A stretch of DNA of 33,241 bases, from assembly GCA_030432715.1 (NCBI GenBank), contig JAUIML010000012.1, positions 1 to 33,241 on the forward strand, in the 5' to 3' direction. Each line of letters starts with the position of its first letter. Positions within the stretch are counted from its first letter, which is position 1. Below are positions 1,180-9,900 of the stretch, piece after piece. Source of the DNA: Acidimicrobiia bacterium (lineage in GTDB: Bacteria > Actinomycetota > Acidimicrobiia > Acidimicrobiales > Aldehydirespiratoraceae). The notes beneath the pieces are model-generated. The model saw nothing but the letters and a program-made list of their open reading frames with translations. It did no database searches and was not told the DNA's origin. The translations under genes and the position numbers were made by a program.

Positions 1180-2193
1180 CTGGCACGAGACCTAGCGATC
1201 GATCTGGGTACGGCGAACACACTCGTCTACGCCCGTGGCGAGGGCATCGTCTTGAACGAGCCCTCCGTGATCGCGCTCAACAGTCGCAATGGCGAAGTGC
1301 TGGCGATGGGTCACGAGGCCTGGCAGATGATCGGCCGGACGCCGAGCTACATCGTCGCCGTGCGCCCGCTCCGCAAGGGGGCCATCACCGACTTCGACGT
1401 CACCCAGCGGATGATCCGGCTCCTGCTGCAGCGTGTCGGCGTGAGTCGCTTGAACCGGCCGAGGGTCGTCATCTGTGTTCCGTCGGCGATCACCGCGGTC
1501 GAACGCCGCGCCGTGACCGAGGCGGCCAAGCGGGCCGGCGCCGCCGACGCTCGCCTGATCGAGCAGCCGGTCGCCGCGGCCATCGGGGCCGATCTCCCGA
1601 TCAACGAGCCGATCGGCAACATGGTGATCGACATCGGTGGCGGTACCACCGAGACCGCGCTCATCTCGCTCGGCGGTGTCGTCGCCCTCGAGGCCGTGCG
1701 GGTCGGGTCGTTCGACATCGACAACGCGATCCAGGGCTACGTCCGGCGCGAGTACGGCATCGCCGTCGGCGAGCGCACCGCGGAGGAGATCAAGATCGTG
1801 CTCGGTTCGGCCGATCCCACCAACGACGAGGTCAACGCCGAGGTTCGTGGCCGGGAGCTGATGAGCGGTCTCCCGAAGACGGTCGTGCTCACGCCGGGCG
1901 AGATCCGCGAGGCGATCGACGAGCCCGTCACCGCCATGGTCGACTCGGTCCTGTCCTGCCTGGCCCAGGCACCTCCCGAGCTCGCGCAGGATCTCATCGT
2001 GCAGGGAATCCATCTCGTCGGTGGTGGCGGGATGCTGAAGGGGATGGACTCCCGCCTGTCGCGCGAAGCCGAAGTGCAGGTGCGCCTGGTCGACTCGCCG
2101 CTCGAGGCCGTGGCCTATGGCGCCGGTCGCGTCATCGAACACTACGAATCGGTGCAGGCGATCTTCATGGAGGGTGGCAGCTCCCGGCGTTGA
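1180..2193 (+). CDS. mreB: Rod-shape-determining actin-like protein MreB, apparent CTG start
   Basis: An MreB-type bacterial actin of 337 residues if started at CTG 1180. MreB polymerises on the inner membrane face and guides elongation of the peptidoglycan wall. Visible nucleotide-binding motifs are phosphate-1 DLGTANT (residues 8-14), phosphate-2 DIGGGTTE (151-158), and the adenosine loop HLVGGGGMLKG (about 278-288). No ATG, GTG or TTG precedes the phosphate-1 loop: the frame is closed by TGA at 1174-1176, and the first usual start (TTG 1252) would remove DLGTANT. CTG 1180 gives an N-terminus xARDLAIDLGTANT of normal MreB form and sits 10 nt after GAGGAG (1164-1169). No mreC, mreD or rodA follows; the next gene is on the opposite strand. 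Confidence 0.95.
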   Translation: MARDLAIDLGTANTLVYARGEGIVLNEPSVIALNSRNGEVLAMGHEAWQMIGRTPSYIVAVRPLRKGAITDFDVTQRMIRLLLQRVGVSRLNRPRVVICVPSAITAVERRAVTEAAKRAGAADARLIEQPVAAAIGADLPINEPIGNMVIDIGGGTTETALISLGGVVALEAVRVGSFDIDNAIQGYVRREYGIAVGERTAEEIKIVLGSADPTNDEVNAEVRGRELMSGLPKTVVLTPGEIREAIDEPVTAMVDSVLSCLAQAPPELAQDLIVQGIHLVGGGGMLKGMDSRLSREAEVQVRLVDSPLEAVAYGAGRVIEHYESVQAIFMEGGSSRR

Positions 2194-2209: not shown

Positions 2210-2884
2210 TCACCGGTCGTCGGGACCCAGCAGTTCCTCGACCGCGTCGCGGACCTGACGGTCTCGGTCGGTGCGGGCCCGTTCCCACGCCGCCTCGACC
2301 TCGGGGCCCTCGAACGCGACCAGCGCGATCACCGCCCGACGGCGGACGGCCGGCTTGTCGGTCGTCGCCTCCAACACCGCGGGGAGGCCCCGGTCGTCAC
2401 CGATCGCGCCGAGGGCGGCCACGGCCGCCTCTCTCGCCAGCGGGTCGTCGTGGGTCCGCACGATCGTGGCCAGGGAATCGATCACGGACGGATCGGCATC
2501 GGAGCGCTCGCCCAGTGCCCACGCCGCGGACTCGACCACCATCGGGTCGGAGTCGTCGAGGAGGGCGGCGATCGGCGGATCGGACCGGGGCGCGGCCAAC
2601 TCGAGCGCCGTGATGCGCACCGACGGATCGTCGTCGTGCAGGGCCGAAACGAGGTCATTCACGGTCAGGTCGCCGAGCCGCGCCAGCGCCCGCAACGCAG
2701 CGATCCGGACGCGGGCGTCGTCGTCGCCGAGCGCGGCTCGAGCGATGGTCGGATCGCCAGTATGGCCGGCGAGGCCCACGGCTCGCCGGCGCTCGGCGGC
2801 TGACGCAGGATGCACGGGTCGGAGGCTACTCGGGAACCACCGGCGGATCGCGGGTCCCGAACCCTCAAGACGACTGGGGTTCAT
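2210..2884 (-). CDS. HEAT-repeat protein
   Basis: A 224-residue protein (ATG 2884; an in-frame ATG 24 nt further upstream is possible). It is made almost entirely of helical HEAT/PBS-lyase-like repeats of about 30 residues. Each contains a form of DDD-x-VRxxALxALxxLGD: for example DDDARVRIAALRALARLGD, DDDPSVRITALELAAP, DDPLAREAAVAALGAIGDD and KPAVRRRAVIALVAFEG. Such alpha-solenoids usually act as protein-binding scaffolds. No signal peptide, membrane segment or catalytic domain is seen, so the partner and role are unknown. It is convergent with mreB (16 bp apart) and divergent from the next gene. Confidence 0.85.
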   Translation of the reverse strand: MNPSRLEGSGPAIRRWFPSSLRPVHPASAAERRRAVGLAGHTGDPTIARAALGDDDARVRIAALRALARLGDLTVNDLVSALHDDDPSVRITALELAAPRSDPPIAALLDDSDPMVVESAAWALGERSDADPSVIDSLATIVRTHDDPLAREAAVAALGAIGDDRGLPAVLEATTDKPAVRRRAVIALVAFEGPEVEAAWERARTDRDRQVRDAVEELLGPDDR

Positions 2885-2927
2885 GCCGACGTGGGGAACG
2901 GCAGACATCCGCGAAGGAGCCGGTTCG

Positions 2928-3360: not shown

Positions 3361-3756
3361 TCAGGCGATCGCCTGCTCGAGCAGGAACCCTGCGGCGAGC
3401 ACGATGATGCCGATCGTGGCGGCGAGGGCGATGCCGATCGAGATGATGATGGCGGCGAGCACGATGAGCGCCCTGACGCGTTCCCACACCCGAACGTAGG
3501 CCTTGCGTCCGACGACCGGTTGTTCGATCCGTCGACGGACGAGCCCGAGCGCCCGGAGGGAATCCATGATGATCGACGTGTCGTCGTCGGGATCGAATCG
3601 CAGGGCCGCCCACACGCCGGCCGGGCTTCGGCGACGGAGCGCGGCATCGCTAGCGCGTGCTGCCGTGGCAGGCTGAAGCGCCCACGGCAGCCGAGCGCTG
3701 CCGAAGAAGACCCCCGTCACGAGGACGAGCACGAGCACGATGAGTGAGGTGAGCAC
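3361..3756 (-). CDS. Small two-TM membrane protein of unknown function
   Basis: A minus-strand protein of 131 residues if it starts at GTG 3756. A hydrophobic N-terminus (VLTSLIVLVLVLVTGVFFG, about 1-19), a central hydrophilic stretch with RFDPDDDTSIIMDSLRALGLVRRR, and a C-terminal hydrophobic segment (about 103-127, LIVLAAIIISIGIALAATIG) give a two-pass topology with a roughly 80-residue loop. I recognise no family. The GTG start overlaps the first possible codons of the divergent PDZ protease gene (3740 or 3767), so one of the two starts may be further downstream than given. Evidence that it is real: a clean membrane protein pattern in this frame and no competing gene. Confidence 0.6.
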   Translation of the reverse strand: MLTSLIVLVLVLVTGVFFGSARLPWALQPATAARASDAALRRRSPAGVWAALRFDPDDDTSIIMDSLRALGLVRRRIEQPVVGRKAYVRVWERVRALIVLAAIIISIGIALAATIGIIVLAAGFLLEQAIA

Positions 3757-4906
3757 GCCGGACCCGATGCTACCGCCCCCTCCGGGGCCGGCGGCACGCG
3801 CCGACGAGGAGCGCCTCGGCCGCGCCTCGGTGTGGTGGCGGATTGCGGCTGTGGTCCTCGGTCTCGGGGTGATCGCGCTCGCGAGCGCGTTGGTGCCCGC
3901 CCGCACCCTCGCCGCCGTCATTCCCGGACAGCGGCTCATCATCGACCAGGAGCTCGTCGCCCAGAAGCCCGGGTCGGCCCGGTCGACCGCGGCGCGCGTC
4001 ACGATCAGCGCCGACGGTATCGACCAGCCCGAGGGCTCCATCCTGTTCACCACGGTGCAGCTCGACACCAGCATCTCCGTGTTCGACTGGCTCAACGGCG
4101 AACTCGACGACGACATCGATCTGCGGCCCCGGAGCGAGGTGATCGGCGACCAGAGCGATGCCGTTCGGCGGGAGCGGAACCTCGAGATGATGCGGGTGTC
4201 GAAGGACGCGGCCGTCGTCGCGGCCTTGCATCATCTCGGCATCGATGTCTTCGAGGAGACGGGGCTCGGCATCGACACCGTGCTCGACGACGGTCCCGCC
4301 GACGGCCTGCTCGTGGCGGGCGACGTCATCATCGCGGTCGACGGCACGCCGATCACGGGGTTCGAGTCGCTGCAGAACGAGCTCGCCGACAAGTCTCCCG
4401 GCCAGGTCGGCACCATCACGGTCGAGAACATCGACACCCTGGAGACCCGCGACGTCGAGCTCGCCTGGGGCGACCATCCGGAGCGTCCCGGCGATGCCTA
4501 CATCGGGATCAACATCGTGCCGCGGCAGGAGGAACTGCCCCTGCCCTTCGACGTCGACATCGACTCTGGCAACATCGGCGGTCCCTCGGCCGGACTGGCG
4601 TTCACCCTGACGATCCTCGATCTCCTCACCGAGGGGGAGCTCACGGGGGGCCGCAACGTGGCGGTCACCGGCACGATCTCGGCCGATGGAACGGTGGGTC
4701 CGGTCGGCGGCTCCGGCCAGAAGGCGGCCGCCGCACGCGATGCCGGCGCGGTTGCGTTCATCGTGCCCCTCGCGATGGTCGACGAGGCCTCCCCTCATGC
4801 CGGCGACATGCCCGTGATCGGTGTCGCGTCCCTCGACGACGCGCTCGACGCGTTGGCCGAGCTGGGTGGCACGACCGACGACCTCGAGCTCATGGTCTTC
4901 GCCTGA
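3740..4906 (+). CDS. Membrane-anchored PDZ domain protease with Lon-type (S16) catalytic domain
   Basis: 388 residues from ATG 3740 (or 379 from ATG 3767). A proline-rich cytoplasmic N-terminus is followed by one membrane segment (about 33-55), a beta-rich region, a PDZ domain (about 180-255, with GLLVAGDVIIAVDGTPI) and a Lon-type proteolytic domain. The catalytic dyad is visible: Ser283 in GGPSAGLA and Lys328 in GGSGQKAA, 45 residues apart as in Lon. There is no AAA+ domain. The family matches B. subtilis YlbL and M. tuberculosis Rv3194c-type proteins: extracytoplasmic proteases that trim membrane or envelope proteins. In mycobacteria this gene lies beside the UPF0182 gene; here the DivIVA-like gene is inserted between them. 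Confidence 0.93.
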   Translation: MSEVSTPDPMLPPPPGPAARADEERLGRASVWWRIAAVVLGLGVIALASALVPARTLAAVIPGQRLIIDQELVAQKPGSARSTAARVTISADGIDQPEGSILFTTVQLDTSISVFDWLNGELDDDIDLRPRSEVIGDQSDAVRRERNLEMMRVSKDAAVVAALHHLGIDVFEETGLGIDTVLDDGPADGLLVAGDVIIAVDGTPITGFESLQNELADKSPGQVGTITVENIDTLETRDVELAWGDHPERPGDAYIGINIVPRQEELPLPFDVDIDSGNIGGPSAGLAFTLTILDLLTEGELTGGRNVAVTGTISADGTVGPVGGSGQKAAAARDAGAVAFIVPLAMVDEASPHAGDMPVIGVASLDDALDALAELGGTTDDLELMVFA

Positions 4907-4941: not shown

Positions 4942-4947
4942 TACGAT
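4942..4947 (+). promoter_or_regulatory. -10-like box (TACGAT) for the DivIVA-like gene
   Basis: TACGAT ends 7 nt before GTG 4955, matching the leaderless spacing seen at several other genes of this window. There is no Shine-Dalgarno sequence before the GTG and no good -35 box. Confidence 0.4.
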
Positions 4948-4954
4948 CAGGTTC

Positions 4955-6823
4955 GTGAATCCGCCTGCTGACGACCTCGATCCGGCGCGTCTCGAGTCCG
5001 CGTCGTTCGAGTTGGTCCGCCGCGGCTTCGACACCACCGCGGTGCGAGCCGAGCTCCAGCGTGCTGCGCAGGAGATCCGGCGGCTCCGACTCGAACGCGA
5101 CGAACTGGCCGGGCGACTCGCCGAGTTCGACGGACTGTCGCCCGACCAGCTCGAGGCTCATCGGGTGGCCGAAGCGCTCGGTGTCGAGGCGGCGCAGGTC
5201 ATCGAGGCCGCCCATCTCGCCGCCCGAGAGCGGGCCGAGCGGGCCCAACGCGAGGCCGATGCCGTCCGCGACGAAGCGCTCGCGGCGGCCGAACAGACCC
5301 GCGACGAGGCACAGCGCGCCCGCGAGACGATGCTCGAGGAGGCCCGGCGCGAGGCGGAAGCCATCGTCGAGGAGGGCCGGGTCCGCGGTCGCGACATGGT
5401 GGCCGAGGCGCAGACCGTGCGCGAGCGGATGCTGCGCGACCTGGCACGGAAACGCCAGACCGGGAGAGCACAGGTCGAGCAACTCAGAGCCGGACGAGAC
5501 CGGTTGCTCGAGAGCCTGTCCGTGGCCCAGGACAGCCTCCACACCGCAGTCGACGATCTCGTCGCGTCGGTGCCGGAGGCGCGAGCTGCGGCCGAACGTG
5601 CCGGACTGCGGGTCAGCTCCGAGCCCACCCCGTCTCCCGATGAGCTCGAGGGCGAGATCGAAGCGGCGCGTCTGGTCGGGCATCCGATCGTCGACGACGT
5701 CGTCGACCCGGGGCCGGTCGACGACGTGGACGATGTGTTCGTGACCGGTGAGATGGACGCGCTCCCGCACCTCGATGTGCTCGACGAATCCGACGGGGAG
5801 ATCGACCGTGAGCGTCCCGCCGAGGTCTCCGACGAGATCGAGGCCGCGGCCGATGTTTCGGAAGCCGATGTTTCGGAGGTCGATGTCTCGGAGGTTGACG
5901 TCTCGGAGGTTGACGTCTCGGAGGTCGATGGCTCGGCGACCGACGGGCAAGACCTCGAGTCGGCCGACGGTTCGGTTTCGCTCTACGACGTCGACGACGA
6001 AGACGCAGACACGACCGACGAAGCATCGGAGCCCGAGCCCGAGCCCGAGCCCGAGCCGGAGGCGCCGGCCGAGGCCGACGACGTGTTCGCGAAGCTCCGC
6101 TCGGCCCAGGAGTCGACCGACGAAGCATCGGAGTCGGAGCCGGAGCCGGAGCCTGAGCCCGAGCCGGAGCCTGAGCCCGAGCCCGAGCCCGAGCCGATGG
6201 TCGAACCCGGCCTCAGCGTGGCGCGGGCCGGCGCTCGCAAACGAGCTGCGGAGACCGCCGCCAAAGCGATGAAGAAGGTGCTGGTCGACGAACAGGGCAC
6301 GCTGCTCGACGGTGTCCGACGCAGTGGCGCGGCGGCGCTCGGGTTCGTCGTCGACGATCCCGCCGCCCACCGCAGCGCCTACGAGAAGGCCGCAGCAGGG
6401 GCACTCAAGGATCTCGCCGCCGAGCTGGGCGGTTCCAAGCGGCTCGCACTGGCCGATGCCTACGCGCAGATCGACGCGATCGCGCTCGAACCCGTTCGTC
6501 AGCGCCTCGGCGACGTGGCCGAGCGGGTCGACGACGCCGACGAACTGTCCGACACGGTGCGCGCCCTCTACCGGGAATCGCGGAGTCGTCGACTCGACGA
6601 AGCCGCGGCGGCCGCCGCCGTCGCCGTCGACGGCCTCGTGTCCATCGCCCTGGCGAAGGGTCCGGTGGTGTGGCACTGCGAAGCGGGCGGTCCGTGCGGC
6701 CCCGACTGTGCCGACAACGCCCTGGCGGGGGAGACGGAAGCCGGGACGGAGTTCCCCACCGGCGATCGCCATCCTCCGTCCCATCCGGCGTGCACGTGCT
6801 GGCTCGCCCCCGTCGACGGCTGA
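4955..6823 (+). CDS. DivIVA-like coiled-coil protein with repeat linker and MuF-like C-terminal Cys/His module
   Basis: 622 residues from GTG 4955. Residues about 15-55 (SFELVRRGFDTTAVRAEL...) resemble the DivIVA N-terminal domain, which binds curved membrane and organises polar growth or division. Residues about 28-220 form a long Glu/Arg/Ala-rich coiled coil. A low-complexity acidic region follows: five DVSE(V/A) repeats (about 300-324) and two Glu-Pro tracts inside a duplicated segment (about 354-415). The C-terminal 200 residues are helical, rich in Ala/Arg, with YRESRSRRLDEAA, and end with VVWHCEAGGPCGPDC...DNALAG...EFPTG...PPSHPACTC. That ending, CxxxxxCxxxC then PPxHPxCxC, resembles the C-terminus of phage Mu gpF-like minor head proteins. 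The function of the fusion is unknown. It sits between the PDZ protease and the UPF0182 gene. Confidence 0.8.
   Translation: MNPPADDLDPARLESASFELVRRGFDTTAVRAELQRAAQEIRRLRLERDELAGRLAEFDGLSPDQLEAHRVAEALGVEAAQVIEAAHLAARERAERAQREADAVRDEALAAAEQTRDEAQRARETMLEEARREAEAIVEEGRVRGRDMVAEAQTVRERMLRDLARKRQTGRAQVEQLRAGRDRLLESLSVAQDSLHTAVDDLVASVPEARAAAERAGLRVSSEPTPSPDELEGEIEAARLVGHPIVDDVVDPGPVDDVDDVFVTGEMDALPHLDVLDESDGEIDRERPAEVSDEIEAAADVSEADVSEVDVSEVDVSEVDVSEVDGSATDGQDLESADGSVSLYDVDDEDADTTDEASEPEPEPEPEPEAPAEADDVFAKLRSAQESTDEASESEPEPEPEPEPEPEPEPEPEPMVEPGLSVARAGARKRAAETAAKAMKKVLVDEQGTLLDGVRRSGAAALGFVVDDPAAHRSAYEKAAAGALKDLAAELGGSKRLALADAYAQIDAIALEPVRQRLGDVAERVDDADELSDTVRALYRESRSRRLDEAAAAAAVAVDGLVSIALAKGPVVWHCEAGGPCGPDCADNALAGETEAGTEFPTGDRHPPSHPACTCWLAPVDG
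5852..5938 (+). repeat. 15-bp in-frame tandem repeat coding DVSEV
   Basis: Five full 15-bp units (5852, 5867, 5882, 5897, 5912) of the form GA(T/C)GT(T/C)TCGGA(G/A)G(T/C)(T/C) plus a degenerate partial copy encode DVSEA, then DVSEV four times. Units 3-5 are nearly identical, which suggests recent slippage expansion within the acidic linker of the DivIVA-like protein. Confidence 0.9.
6013..6198 (+). repeat. Duplicated segment with Glu-Pro tracts
   Basis: A 19-bp direct repeat, GACCGACGAAGCATCGGAG, occurs at 6013-6031 and 6115-6133, 102 bp (34 codons) apart. Each copy is followed by a run of GAGCC(C/G) hexamers coding Glu-Pro, shorter in the first copy and longer in the second. This is an internal duplication plus hexamer expansion, probably length-variable between strains. 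Confidence 0.85.
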
Positions 6824-6885: not shown

Positions 6886-9800
6886 ATGCGCGCTGCTGAT
6901 GATCTGCCCCGTCGCGAGAATGGCCGCGTGGGCGGTCGCGGCCGAGTGGTCGCCGTCATCGCGGTGGTGGTGCTGATCTTCCTCGCCGCATCGCTTTCGG
7001 GGATCGCGAGCTTCTACACCGACTACCTCTGGTTCGACGCCCTCGACCGGGCGTCGGTCTGGCGTCAGGTCCTCGGCGCCAAGATCGCTCTGACATTGAT
7101 CTTCGGCGGGATCTTCTTCGTCTTCATGTGGCTCAACCTGTTTCTCGCCGACCGGGCGGCGCCGGCCTTCCGCCCCGCCGGGCCCGAAGAGGAACTGCTG
7201 GCTCGCTATCACGACGTGGTCGCCGGTCGGAAGACGCTGATCCGCACCGCCGTGTCGTTCGTGTTCGCGCTCATCGCCGCCGCCGGCGTCTCGAGCCGGT
7301 GGGAAGACTGGCTGCTGTTCACCAACCGGCAGGACTTCGGGATCACCGACGATCAGTTCGGCCGGGACGTCGGGTTCTACGTGTTCCAGCTTCCCTTCCT
7401 CAGCTTCGTGGTCGGGTGGGCGTTCGCCAGCTTCGTCATCATCTTCATCCTCACGGCGATCAACCACTATCTCAACGGGTCGATCCGCGTCACGGCCGTC
7501 GCCGGCAGCCGGGCGACCCCGACCGTGAAGGTCCACCTCTCCGCCATCCTCGCCGTGCTCGCCCTGATCAAGGCCGTCGACTACTGGCTCGACCGGTTCG
7601 AGCTCACGGTCTCGAGCCGGGGTGTGGTCGACGGAGCGCTCTACACCGACATCAAGGCCCAGCTCCCCGCGATCCATCTGCTGATCGCGATCTCGCTCGC
7701 CGCCGTCGTCCTCCTCGTGGTCAACCTGCGCCTCCGGGGTTGGACCATGCCGGTGCTCGCCGTCGGCCTGTGGGCGTTCACCGCCATTGTCGTCGGTGGG
7801 ATCTACCCGGCCTTCGTGCAGCGGTTCCAGGTCGAACCCAACGAGACCACCCGCGAGGCCGAGTTCGTCGATCGGAACATCCGGGCCACGACCTATGCGT
7901 TCGGGCTCGACGGCATCGAACAGCAGCAGTTCGACTACACCGACGAGCTCACGGCCGACCAGATCCGCGCCAACGCGGCGACCGTGGCCAACGCGCGTCT
8001 TCTCGACCCCGTTGCCGTGCACCCGACCTTCGAGCGGGAGCAGACCGAGCGCGACTTCTACCGGTTCGTCGGGGTCGACACCGATCCGAGCGACCCCAAC
8101 GCGGGCACGGCGCTCGATACCGATCGCTATCTGATCGACGGCGAGCTCCGCCAGGTCGTGGTCGGTGCCCGTGAGCTCCAGCTCGACAGCAACCTGAGCT
8201 GGGAGCGCGAGCACGTGCGGCTCACCCACGGCTACGGGTTGGCCATGGCGACGGCCAACACCCCGACCTCGGCCGGCAGTCCCGACTTCGTCGTGTCCGG
8301 TCTTCCCACGGCCGTCGACGAGTCGCTCGAGGTCACGGTGAATCGTCCGCAGCTCTACCACGGCGAGGACCTCGGCGGCTATGCCCTCGTCGACACGACG
8401 GTCAGCGAGATCGACTATGTCGACAGCGAGACCGGCGCCGACGTGCCCTTCCTCTACGACGGCTCCGGTGGTGTCGAGATGGGGTCGTTCATCCGGAAGG
8501 CCGCGTTCGCGCTGCGCTTCCGCCAGATCGACCCGCTGATCTCCAACTTCGTCGACGACAACACGCGGATCATCTACAACCGCGACGTCCACAACCGGGT
8601 GCAGGCGCTGGCCCCGTTCCTCGAGTTCGATGCCGATGCCTACCCGGTCATCGTCGATGGCGACATCTTCTACGTGATCGACGGCTACACGACATCGGAC
8701 CGGTTCCCCTACAGCCAGTCCAGCGAGAACGGACGGCTCACCGAGGGAGGGCTGTCCGGTTCGTCGTTCAACTATGTGCGCAACTCGGTCAAGGCGGTCG
8801 TCGACGCCTACGAGGGCACCGTCGCCTTCTACGTGATGCCGGGCGACGATCCGATCATCAGCGCCTGGCAGAGCGCGTTCCCGGCGCTCTTCTCGGAATT
8901 CGACGAGATGCCGCTCGCACTGCGAGACCACCTCCGGTACCCGCAGGATCTCTTCCGCGTGCAGACCAACATGTACGCCCGGTACCAGGTCGAGGATCCC
9001 GAGGCGCTCATCATCGGCACCGAAGCGTGGGCCGTCGCCCAGGACCCGGGCCGCACGGTGCGCGCCGGCGGCACCTCGGAGGAGTCGACCGACGAGTTCG
9101 GCGTCACCACCACGAGCGAGCGTCGGGTGAATCCCTACTACTCGCTGCTCCAGTTGCCGGGCGAGGAGGAGCCCTCGTTCGTGACGCTGCGGACGTTCGT
9201 TCCGTTCGCGGAGAACGACGACCGCAAGGAGCTCGAGGCCTTCATGGTGGGTGAGACCACCCCCGAGGGTGTGTCGCGTCTGGTGAGCTACGAGATGAAC
9301 AGCGCCTCCGCGCCCGGGCCGGTTCTCGTCGCCACGAGCATCGCCCAGAACGACGAGATCGCCCAGCTCCTCACCCTGCTCAACGCCAACGGTTCGACCG
9401 TCGAGTTCAGCGACGTGCTGCTGCTCCCGATCGACGACGCGATCCTCTGGGTGCGTTCGCTCTATGTCGCGGCCGAGGGCACCAGCGTGCCCACGCTCGA
9501 GAACGTCATCGTCTCGGTCGGCGAGGGCGAGCAACTGGCCATCGGGTCGACGCTCGAGGAGGCGCTGGAGAACCTGTTCCCGGGCGAGGAGTTCGGCACG
9601 GTCCTCGATCGGCCGGCCGGAGGCGCCGTGACGACGCCGCCGGTCACCGTGCCGCCGTCGACCGGCGACCCCGTGGAGCCGCCGCCCCCGAGCGACGGGT
9701 TGCCCGATTCGCTCGAGGATCTGGTGATCGAGATCGAAGAGCTCTGGCAGGCCTCCAACGAGGCGCTCGCCGAGGATCCCCCCGACCGAGTCGCCTCGGC

Positions 9801-9900
9801 CGAAGCCTTGGCCCGCATCGACGAGCTCCTGGCCCACAGCCGGACGCTCACCGGCACGGAGCCACCCGAGCCCGTCGATCCGGGTGAGGTCGAGAGCTGA
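6886..9900 (+). CDS. UPF0182 family large integral membrane protein
   Basis: 1004 residues, typical for the UPF0182 (DUF UPF0182, COG1615) family widespread in actinobacteria and cyanobacteria; the biochemical function is not established. After a short basic N-terminus there are about seven membrane segments within residues 20-310 (for example VVAVIAVVVLIFLAASLSGI and LTLIFGGIFFVFMWLNLFLA). Family-typical stretches are FYTDYLWFDALD, SSRWEDWLLFTN and DPQFGRDVGFYVFQLPF-like text. A large extracytoplasmic domain follows (about 320-920), with NxRATTYAFGLDGI and YPQDLFRVQTNMYARYQVEDPE. The C-terminus has a Pro/Val linker and an acidic helix. The next gene starts inside its stop codon (CTGA). Confidence 0.95.
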   Translation: MRAADDLPRRENGRVGGRGRVVAVIAVVVLIFLAASLSGIASFYTDYLWFDALDRASVWRQVLGAKIALTLIFGGIFFVFMWLNLFLADRAAPAFRPAGPEEELLARYHDVVAGRKTLIRTAVSFVFALIAAAGVSSRWEDWLLFTNRQDFGITDDQFGRDVGFYVFQLPFLSFVVGWAFASFVIIFILTAINHYLNGSIRVTAVAGSRATPTVKVHLSAILAVLALIKAVDYWLDRFELTVSSRGVVDGALYTDIKAQLPAIHLLIAISLAAVVLLVVNLRLRGWTMPVLAVGLWAFTAIVVGGIYPAFVQRFQVEPNETTREAEFVDRNIRATTYAFGLDGIEQQQFDYTDELTADQIRANAATVANARLLDPVAVHPTFEREQTERDFYRFVGVDTDPSDPNAGTALDTDRYLIDGELRQVVVGARELQLDSNLSWEREHVRLTHGYGLAMATANTPTSAGSPDFVVSGLPTAVDESLEVTVNRPQLYHGEDLGGYALVDTTVSEIDYVDSETGADVPFLYDGSGGVEMGSFIRKAAFALRFRQIDPLISNFVDDNTRIIYNRDVHNRVQALAPFLEFDADAYPVIVDGDIFYVIDGYTTSDRFPYSQSSENGRLTEGGLSGSSFNYVRNSVKAVVDAYEGTVAFYVMPGDDPIISAWQSAFPALFSEFDEMPLALRDHLRYPQDLFRVQTNMYARYQVEDPEALIIGTEAWAVAQDPGRTVRAGGTSEESTDEFGVTTTSERRVNPYYSLLQLPGEEEPSFVTLRTFVPFAENDDRKELEAFMVGETTPEGVSRLVSYEMNSASAPGPVLVATSIAQNDEIAQLLTLLNANGSTVEFSDVLLLPIDDAILWVRSLYVAAEGTSVPTLENVIVSVGEGEQLAIGSTLEEALENLFPGEEFGTVLDRPAGGAVTTPPVTVPPSTGDPVEPPPPSDGLPDSLEDLVIEIEELWQASNEALAEDPPDRVASAEALARIDELLAHSRTLTGTEPPEPVDPGEVES

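Follow-up and report, generated by a model that had tools for sequence, protein, structure and literature searches.

Within the window, by which we mean the whole 33,241-nucleotide stretch of Acidimicrobiia bacterium DNA that was analysed, a gene that we call the DivIVA-MuF-like gene lies between genes for a PDZ-Lon protease and a UPF0182 membrane protein (Table 1). Its open reading frame is a real coding gene, as judged by a coding-type GC content by codon position and by orthologs, which 49 of 51 genomes of the family carry. A TACGAT box resembling a −10 element precedes the GTG start codon by 7 nt in the window, and most orthologs of the family (f1) outside genus g2 have it 6-7 nt 5' of their own start codons. 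Because this spacing recurs, it suggests a leaderless transcript, and the box is likely the gene's own promoter.

Table 1. Features of the DivIVA-MuF-like gene and its surroundings (window positions)
Feature	Position	Strand	Remarks
MreB/Mbl gene (cell shape)	1252..2193	+	further upstream; near the locus in 24/53 relatives with >3.5 kb of upstream sequence
PDZ-Lon (S16, YlbL-type) protease gene	3740..4906	+	conserved upstream neighbour
TACGAT, −10-like box	4942..4947	+	box seen in the sequence; promoter activity presumed
DivIVA-MuF-like gene	4955..6823	+	622 aa, GTG start
DivIVA-like N-terminal segment, residues 14-122	4994..5320	+	PF05103 match below cut-off; orthologs above
Coiled-coil segment resembling Wag31, residues 65-188	5147..5518	+	NF050102, E 1.6e-5, partial, below its cut-off
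Acidic repeat-rich linker, presumably disordered, residues 224-425	5624..6229	+	sequence and tandem repeats
MuF-like domain, helical part (four long helices), residues 422-566	6218..6652	+	conservation, predicted model, HMM match to phage portal-MuF
MuF-like domain, Cys/His tail, residues 570-619 (W573, C581, C585, H610, C613, C615)	6662..6811	+	conservation, hhalign
UPF0182 membrane protein gene	6886..9900	+	invariant downstream neighbour

The original prediction placed the gene inside an envelope gene group, and a genome survey bears this out: among 166 loci, UPF0182 lies downstream in all 159 with enough sequence, and PDZ-Lon lies upstream in 82 of 88. A HEAT-repeat protein gene (window 2210-2908, minus strand) is also near the locus in 43 of the 53 relatives with enough upstream sequence. 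The C-terminal domain occurs in 49/51 genomes of the family, 147/198 of the order and, with a narrower profile, 119/247 of the class. Most Acidimicrobiales families carry the gene, and its relatives include one in the complete genome of Aquihabitans sp. G128. A broader profile also picks up the domain beyond the class, in other families of the phylum, where it again stands directly 5' of UPF0182. The gene is present in none of five genomes that lack UPF0182, as against 9 of 22 that have it, numbers too few for significance alone.

Several lineages have lost the Cys/His tail through in-frame stops or truncation, or lack the gene altogether, and they retain PDZ-Lon and UPF0182; the module is therefore not essential to that pair. 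At six loci (L174, L175, L176, L178, L181 and L190) the gene is absent and PDZ-Lon stands directly 5' of UPF0182. Such loci suggest that PDZ-Lon and UPF0182 form an older pair, which either gained the DivIVA-MuF-like gene by insertion or once had it and lost it. Loss of the tail is under way in genus g9: at one locus (L019, genome G041) a lone in-frame TAG falls at the conserved Trp, with an otherwise intact tail beyond it, and the sister loci L026-L031 have stops followed by decayed sequence. We considered programmed read-through of the in-frame stops before the tail at these loci, but loss is the simpler explanation because the sequence past the stops in L026-L031 has decayed.

The N-terminal part of the protein was expected to be DivIVA-like and to continue into a long coiled coil, and both are found. 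Residues 14-122 match PF05103 (DivIVA) at 23.4 bits, below the Pfam cut-off of 28 bits, whereas orthologs from other families pass it (40.9 and 48.2 bits), as do those of genomes G052, G056 and G181; the set scanned for the two scores given here included one protein (protein 1) that is a hand-written consensus of host sequences. The window's FELVRRGFD corresponds to the RGYD motif of DivIVA, and RRGFD or RRGYE stands at this place in the f1 orthologs, with the coiled coil following the motif and giving the partial Wag31-type match. The acidic, repeat-rich linker was likewise recognised correctly. It is variable, contains tandem repeats of 15-bp and 6/18-bp units at 5851-6196, and separates the C-terminal domain from the DivIVA-like, membrane part. 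Like DivIVA and Wag31 (PF05103, NF050102), the protein thus has an RGYD-type segment and a coiled coil; unlike them, it continues into the long acidic linker and ends in a MuF-like domain. The genomes that carry the gene encode other DivIVA proteins as well.

The C-terminal domain comprises about 200 amino acids and ends in W-x7-CGPDCADNALAG...EFPTG...PPxHPxCTC. Counting protein residue 410 as domain residue 1 (the domain itself begins at about residue 422), W164, D178, L181, G188, P192, T193, C204 and C206 are the same in all 37 sequences compared across the class. The C-terminal motifs named in the original prediction are present as claimed, save that in CxxxxxCxxxC only the second and third cysteines (581 and 585) are conserved in the family and the first, in WHC (575), varies. 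The Cys/His signature of MuF C-termini (C..C and PPxHPxCRC) is found here. Of the two cysteines before the DN, at least one is present in each of the 123 motif-bearing tails. The His is found in 120 of these, and the three His-less tails retain two cysteines. This pattern fits a putative metal site that needs four of five possible ligands, the degenerate tail of L177 being the one exception. Relatives outside the class (L227-L232) carry a variant tail, CPxDxCxxNxxAG...FPSGHxAPPAHGxCTC.

The proposed kinship of this domain with phage MuF proteins was examined by a profile check set beforehand, and it held. The portal protein family PHROG 2662 is matched by 33 of the 37 class-wide relatives (best 9.8e-15), and the window protein aligns to the profile's C-terminal end (positions 545-707 of 717); several minor-head and head-morphogenesis PHROGs are also matched among the 37 relatives. 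Profile-profile comparison (hhalign) of the class-wide domain with seven phage MuF domains gave 98.6% (E 8.8e-16), and the window's family alone gave 97.8%. Twenty column-shuffled controls and one reversed control reached at most 1.5%. When an HMM of the host domain was run against 572 phage ORFs, the top matches were portals with a C-terminal MuF, namely the portal of Brevundimonas phage Strzyga (8e-11) and IMG/VR portals (9e-9 to 3e-6), and some matches (L234, L088) extend through the helical part too. Similarity searches brought up phage proteins whose annotations read MuF-like, portal-MuF fusion, capsid maturation protease or minor head protein; all five that were scanned contain PF04233.

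The tblastn query was a hand-written consensus of host sequences, and we put the weight instead on the PHROG results, on hhalign with its controls and on the host HMM. The phage set used in hhalign had been picked through that query, and for this reason the shuffled controls and the portals L233-L235 were used. These three portals, which are among the top matches of the host HMM, were found via the Strzyga portal, itself a match of the unmodified window domain, and not by direct similarity to the host. PF04233 itself gives weak matches in 20 of the 37 relatives (best E 3.3e-5), all under the curated cut-off of 29.6 bits, as are the whole-genome matches at the locus; in the Pfam scan of the window protein it gave none, and Pfam and NCBIfam scans of the window C-terminus alone returned nothing useful. 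It is because this cut-off is not reached that we use the name MuF-like. Two other weak PF04233 matches in the same family lie away from the locus (G018:C146:14180-14563 and G023:C91:1737-2084). No relatives came up when viral contigs were scanned with patterns from the host domain. Since single-sequence comparisons with phage Mu gpF and Lactococcus Q33 were not significant, the MuF relation rests on profiles. Taken together, these results give good support for a divergent kinship of the C-terminal domain with MuF, its closest likeness being the MuF portion of portal-MuF fusions.

Structure prediction agrees with the expected MuF-like fold. A model built from 37 sequences (pLDDT 96.4) was compared with BFVD, and the named matches were mostly phage head morphogenesis, minor capsid, portal and MuF proteins, with probability 1.00 and TM values of 0.3-0.63. 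Against the PDB the same model had no standout match, only common helical bundles, and a first, shallow model (pLDDT 85.6) had no match there. On the evidence of the model the fold is that of MuF proteins. The phage minor head proteins (PF04233; SPP1 gp7, Mu gpF) and portal-MuF fusions (PHROG 2662; Arthrobacter phage Sonali gp3, the Strzyga portal) resemble the cell protein in C-terminal domain, profile and fold, and share with it a pattern of helices followed by W...C..C..N..AG......FPSG/FPTG..P.AHP.CRC. Unlike them, the cell gene is chromosomal, stands away from portal and capsid genes, is fused to DivIVA, stays below the PF04233 cut-off and has no toxin domain. The MuF polymorphic toxins are alike in using MuF as a carrier with another part attached (PMC5576092); there the MuF is N-terminal, with a C-terminal toxin, in temperate phages, whereas here it is C-terminal on a cell scaffold.

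Could the conserved tail be a switch and not a structural knob? Oxidation or metal loss would then alter scaffold assembly, and C613 and C615 are indeed invariant and H610 nearly so, the Cys pair before the DN is variable, and the acidic linker sets the tail apart from the membrane part. However, phage MuF domains share the CxC and the greater part of this Cys/His set, and the Gly, Pro, Thr and Trp positions are conserved as strongly as the cysteines; both observations point to a structural role. A redox or metal-responsive switch thus appears unlikely.

As to origin, given the significant profile match and the resemblance of the fold to phage head and MuF proteins, the best reading is that a capsid-associated module has been domesticated and now sits among envelope genes, a reading that had been offered at the outset. 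We infer that transfer was from phage to cell. In the tree a single cellular group is compatible with the data and not rejected (AU p 0.38), but the tree is weakly resolved and leaves the split between cellular and phage sequences unrooted, and a domain of cellular origin captured by phages would accord with this. There is only a slim chance that this happened. MuF occurs in phages of many hosts, including archaeal ones, and the cellular form is found only in part of one phylum; moreover, a survey that placed MuF in phages and called its function unknown found 96% of the muf genes in bacterial genomes in prophages or their remnants (PMC5576092).

The nearest relatives are MuF parts fused to portals, and SPP1 gp7 enters the head through a strong interaction with the portal (PMC6316719; portal binding also PMC5576092), so a knob of this kind might serve as an anti-phage decoy that binds incoming portals and poisons head assembly. 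We regard this as quite improbable: the gene is inherited vertically across the class at one locus beside envelope genes, whereas defence genes spread patchily, and its sequence is under strong constraint (tail dN/dS about 0.11-0.22, purifying selection), in contrast to the diversification expected in an arms race. That the Cys/His spacing arose by chance or convergence, with no MuF kinship, might be argued from the missing PF04233 match of the window protein and from Mu gpF alone being unmatched, but it is very improbable and already contradicted by the significant profile, profile-profile and structural matches with their clean controls, some of them running through the helical part. Least credible, and likewise contradicted, is a prophage remnant or a metagenome assembly error, since, although the window genome is fragmented (310 contigs, 83% complete), the same gene stands in the same order in single-contig genomes (G028, G056, G181 and Aquihabitans sp. 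G128), and the scanned window ORFs include no phage genes. Nor is the gene beside a phage portal gene, its neighbours being PDZ-Lon and UPF0182; an HK97-type portal (PF04860) was absent from nine of the ten genomes checked. With its fixed locus, purifying selection and no phage genes among the window ORFs scanned, this is a cell gene and not a prophage.

We are highly confident of the homology and of the architecture, a DivIVA-like N-terminus and a MuF-like C-terminus; a scaffold and docking role is a proposal that we hold to be evenly balanced, and the same measure applies to homology and docking role taken as one claim. Most likely, the gene product combines a membrane scaffold with a docking module domesticated from phages and serves to organise nearby envelope proteins, a function we infer. 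The protein would be an additional membrane scaffold of the DivIVA family whose C-terminus is a domesticated, divergent MuF domain, a helical bundle with a Cys/His tail. At poles or septa its DivIVA-like end and coiled coil would come together on the membrane, the MuF-like knob would be kept at a distance from it by the long acidic linker, and the tail may bind one structural metal ion that shapes the knob. The knob would then dock on a partner encoded alongside, the likeliest being UPF0182 or the PDZ-Lon protease, perhaps in the way that SPP1 gp7 attaches to the portal ring, and this envelope machinery would thereby be concentrated at sites of growth or division. UPF0182 is the best candidate by gene order, but only tentatively the docking partner, synteny alone being no sign of physical contact.

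Rv3193c is a protein that we take to belong to UPF0182. In M. tuberculosis, Rv3193c is among the genetic-interaction hits with the division gene rv0954 (PMC8093794). A survey of DivIVA covers acidimicrobial DivIVA proteins and makes no mention of phages or fusions (PMC9858780). Our literature search, with most subscription papers outside its scope, found no paper on DivIVA together with phage head morphogenesis, or on an Acidimicrobiia coiled coil with a phage portal.

The pairing of a MuF-like domain with DivIVA has been kept across many families, and it seems that a part of a virus has become a permanent part of the cell. It is possible, if somewhat doubtful, that in a single early event within part of the Actinomycetota a DivIVA-type scaffold acquired a portal-associated domain of tailed-phage origin as its docking knob, and that the domain today forms with UPF0182 and PDZ-Lon a lineage-specific complex for envelope growth or division. 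In Acidimicrobiia genomes one could mistake proteins of this kind for prophage remnants. A MuF-like domain under selection in cells across a bacterial class offers a setting outside phages for the job of this domain, be it docking or a metal site, and it indicates UPF0182 and PDZ-Lon as candidate partners, with a viral part added to what is probably bacterial envelope machinery.
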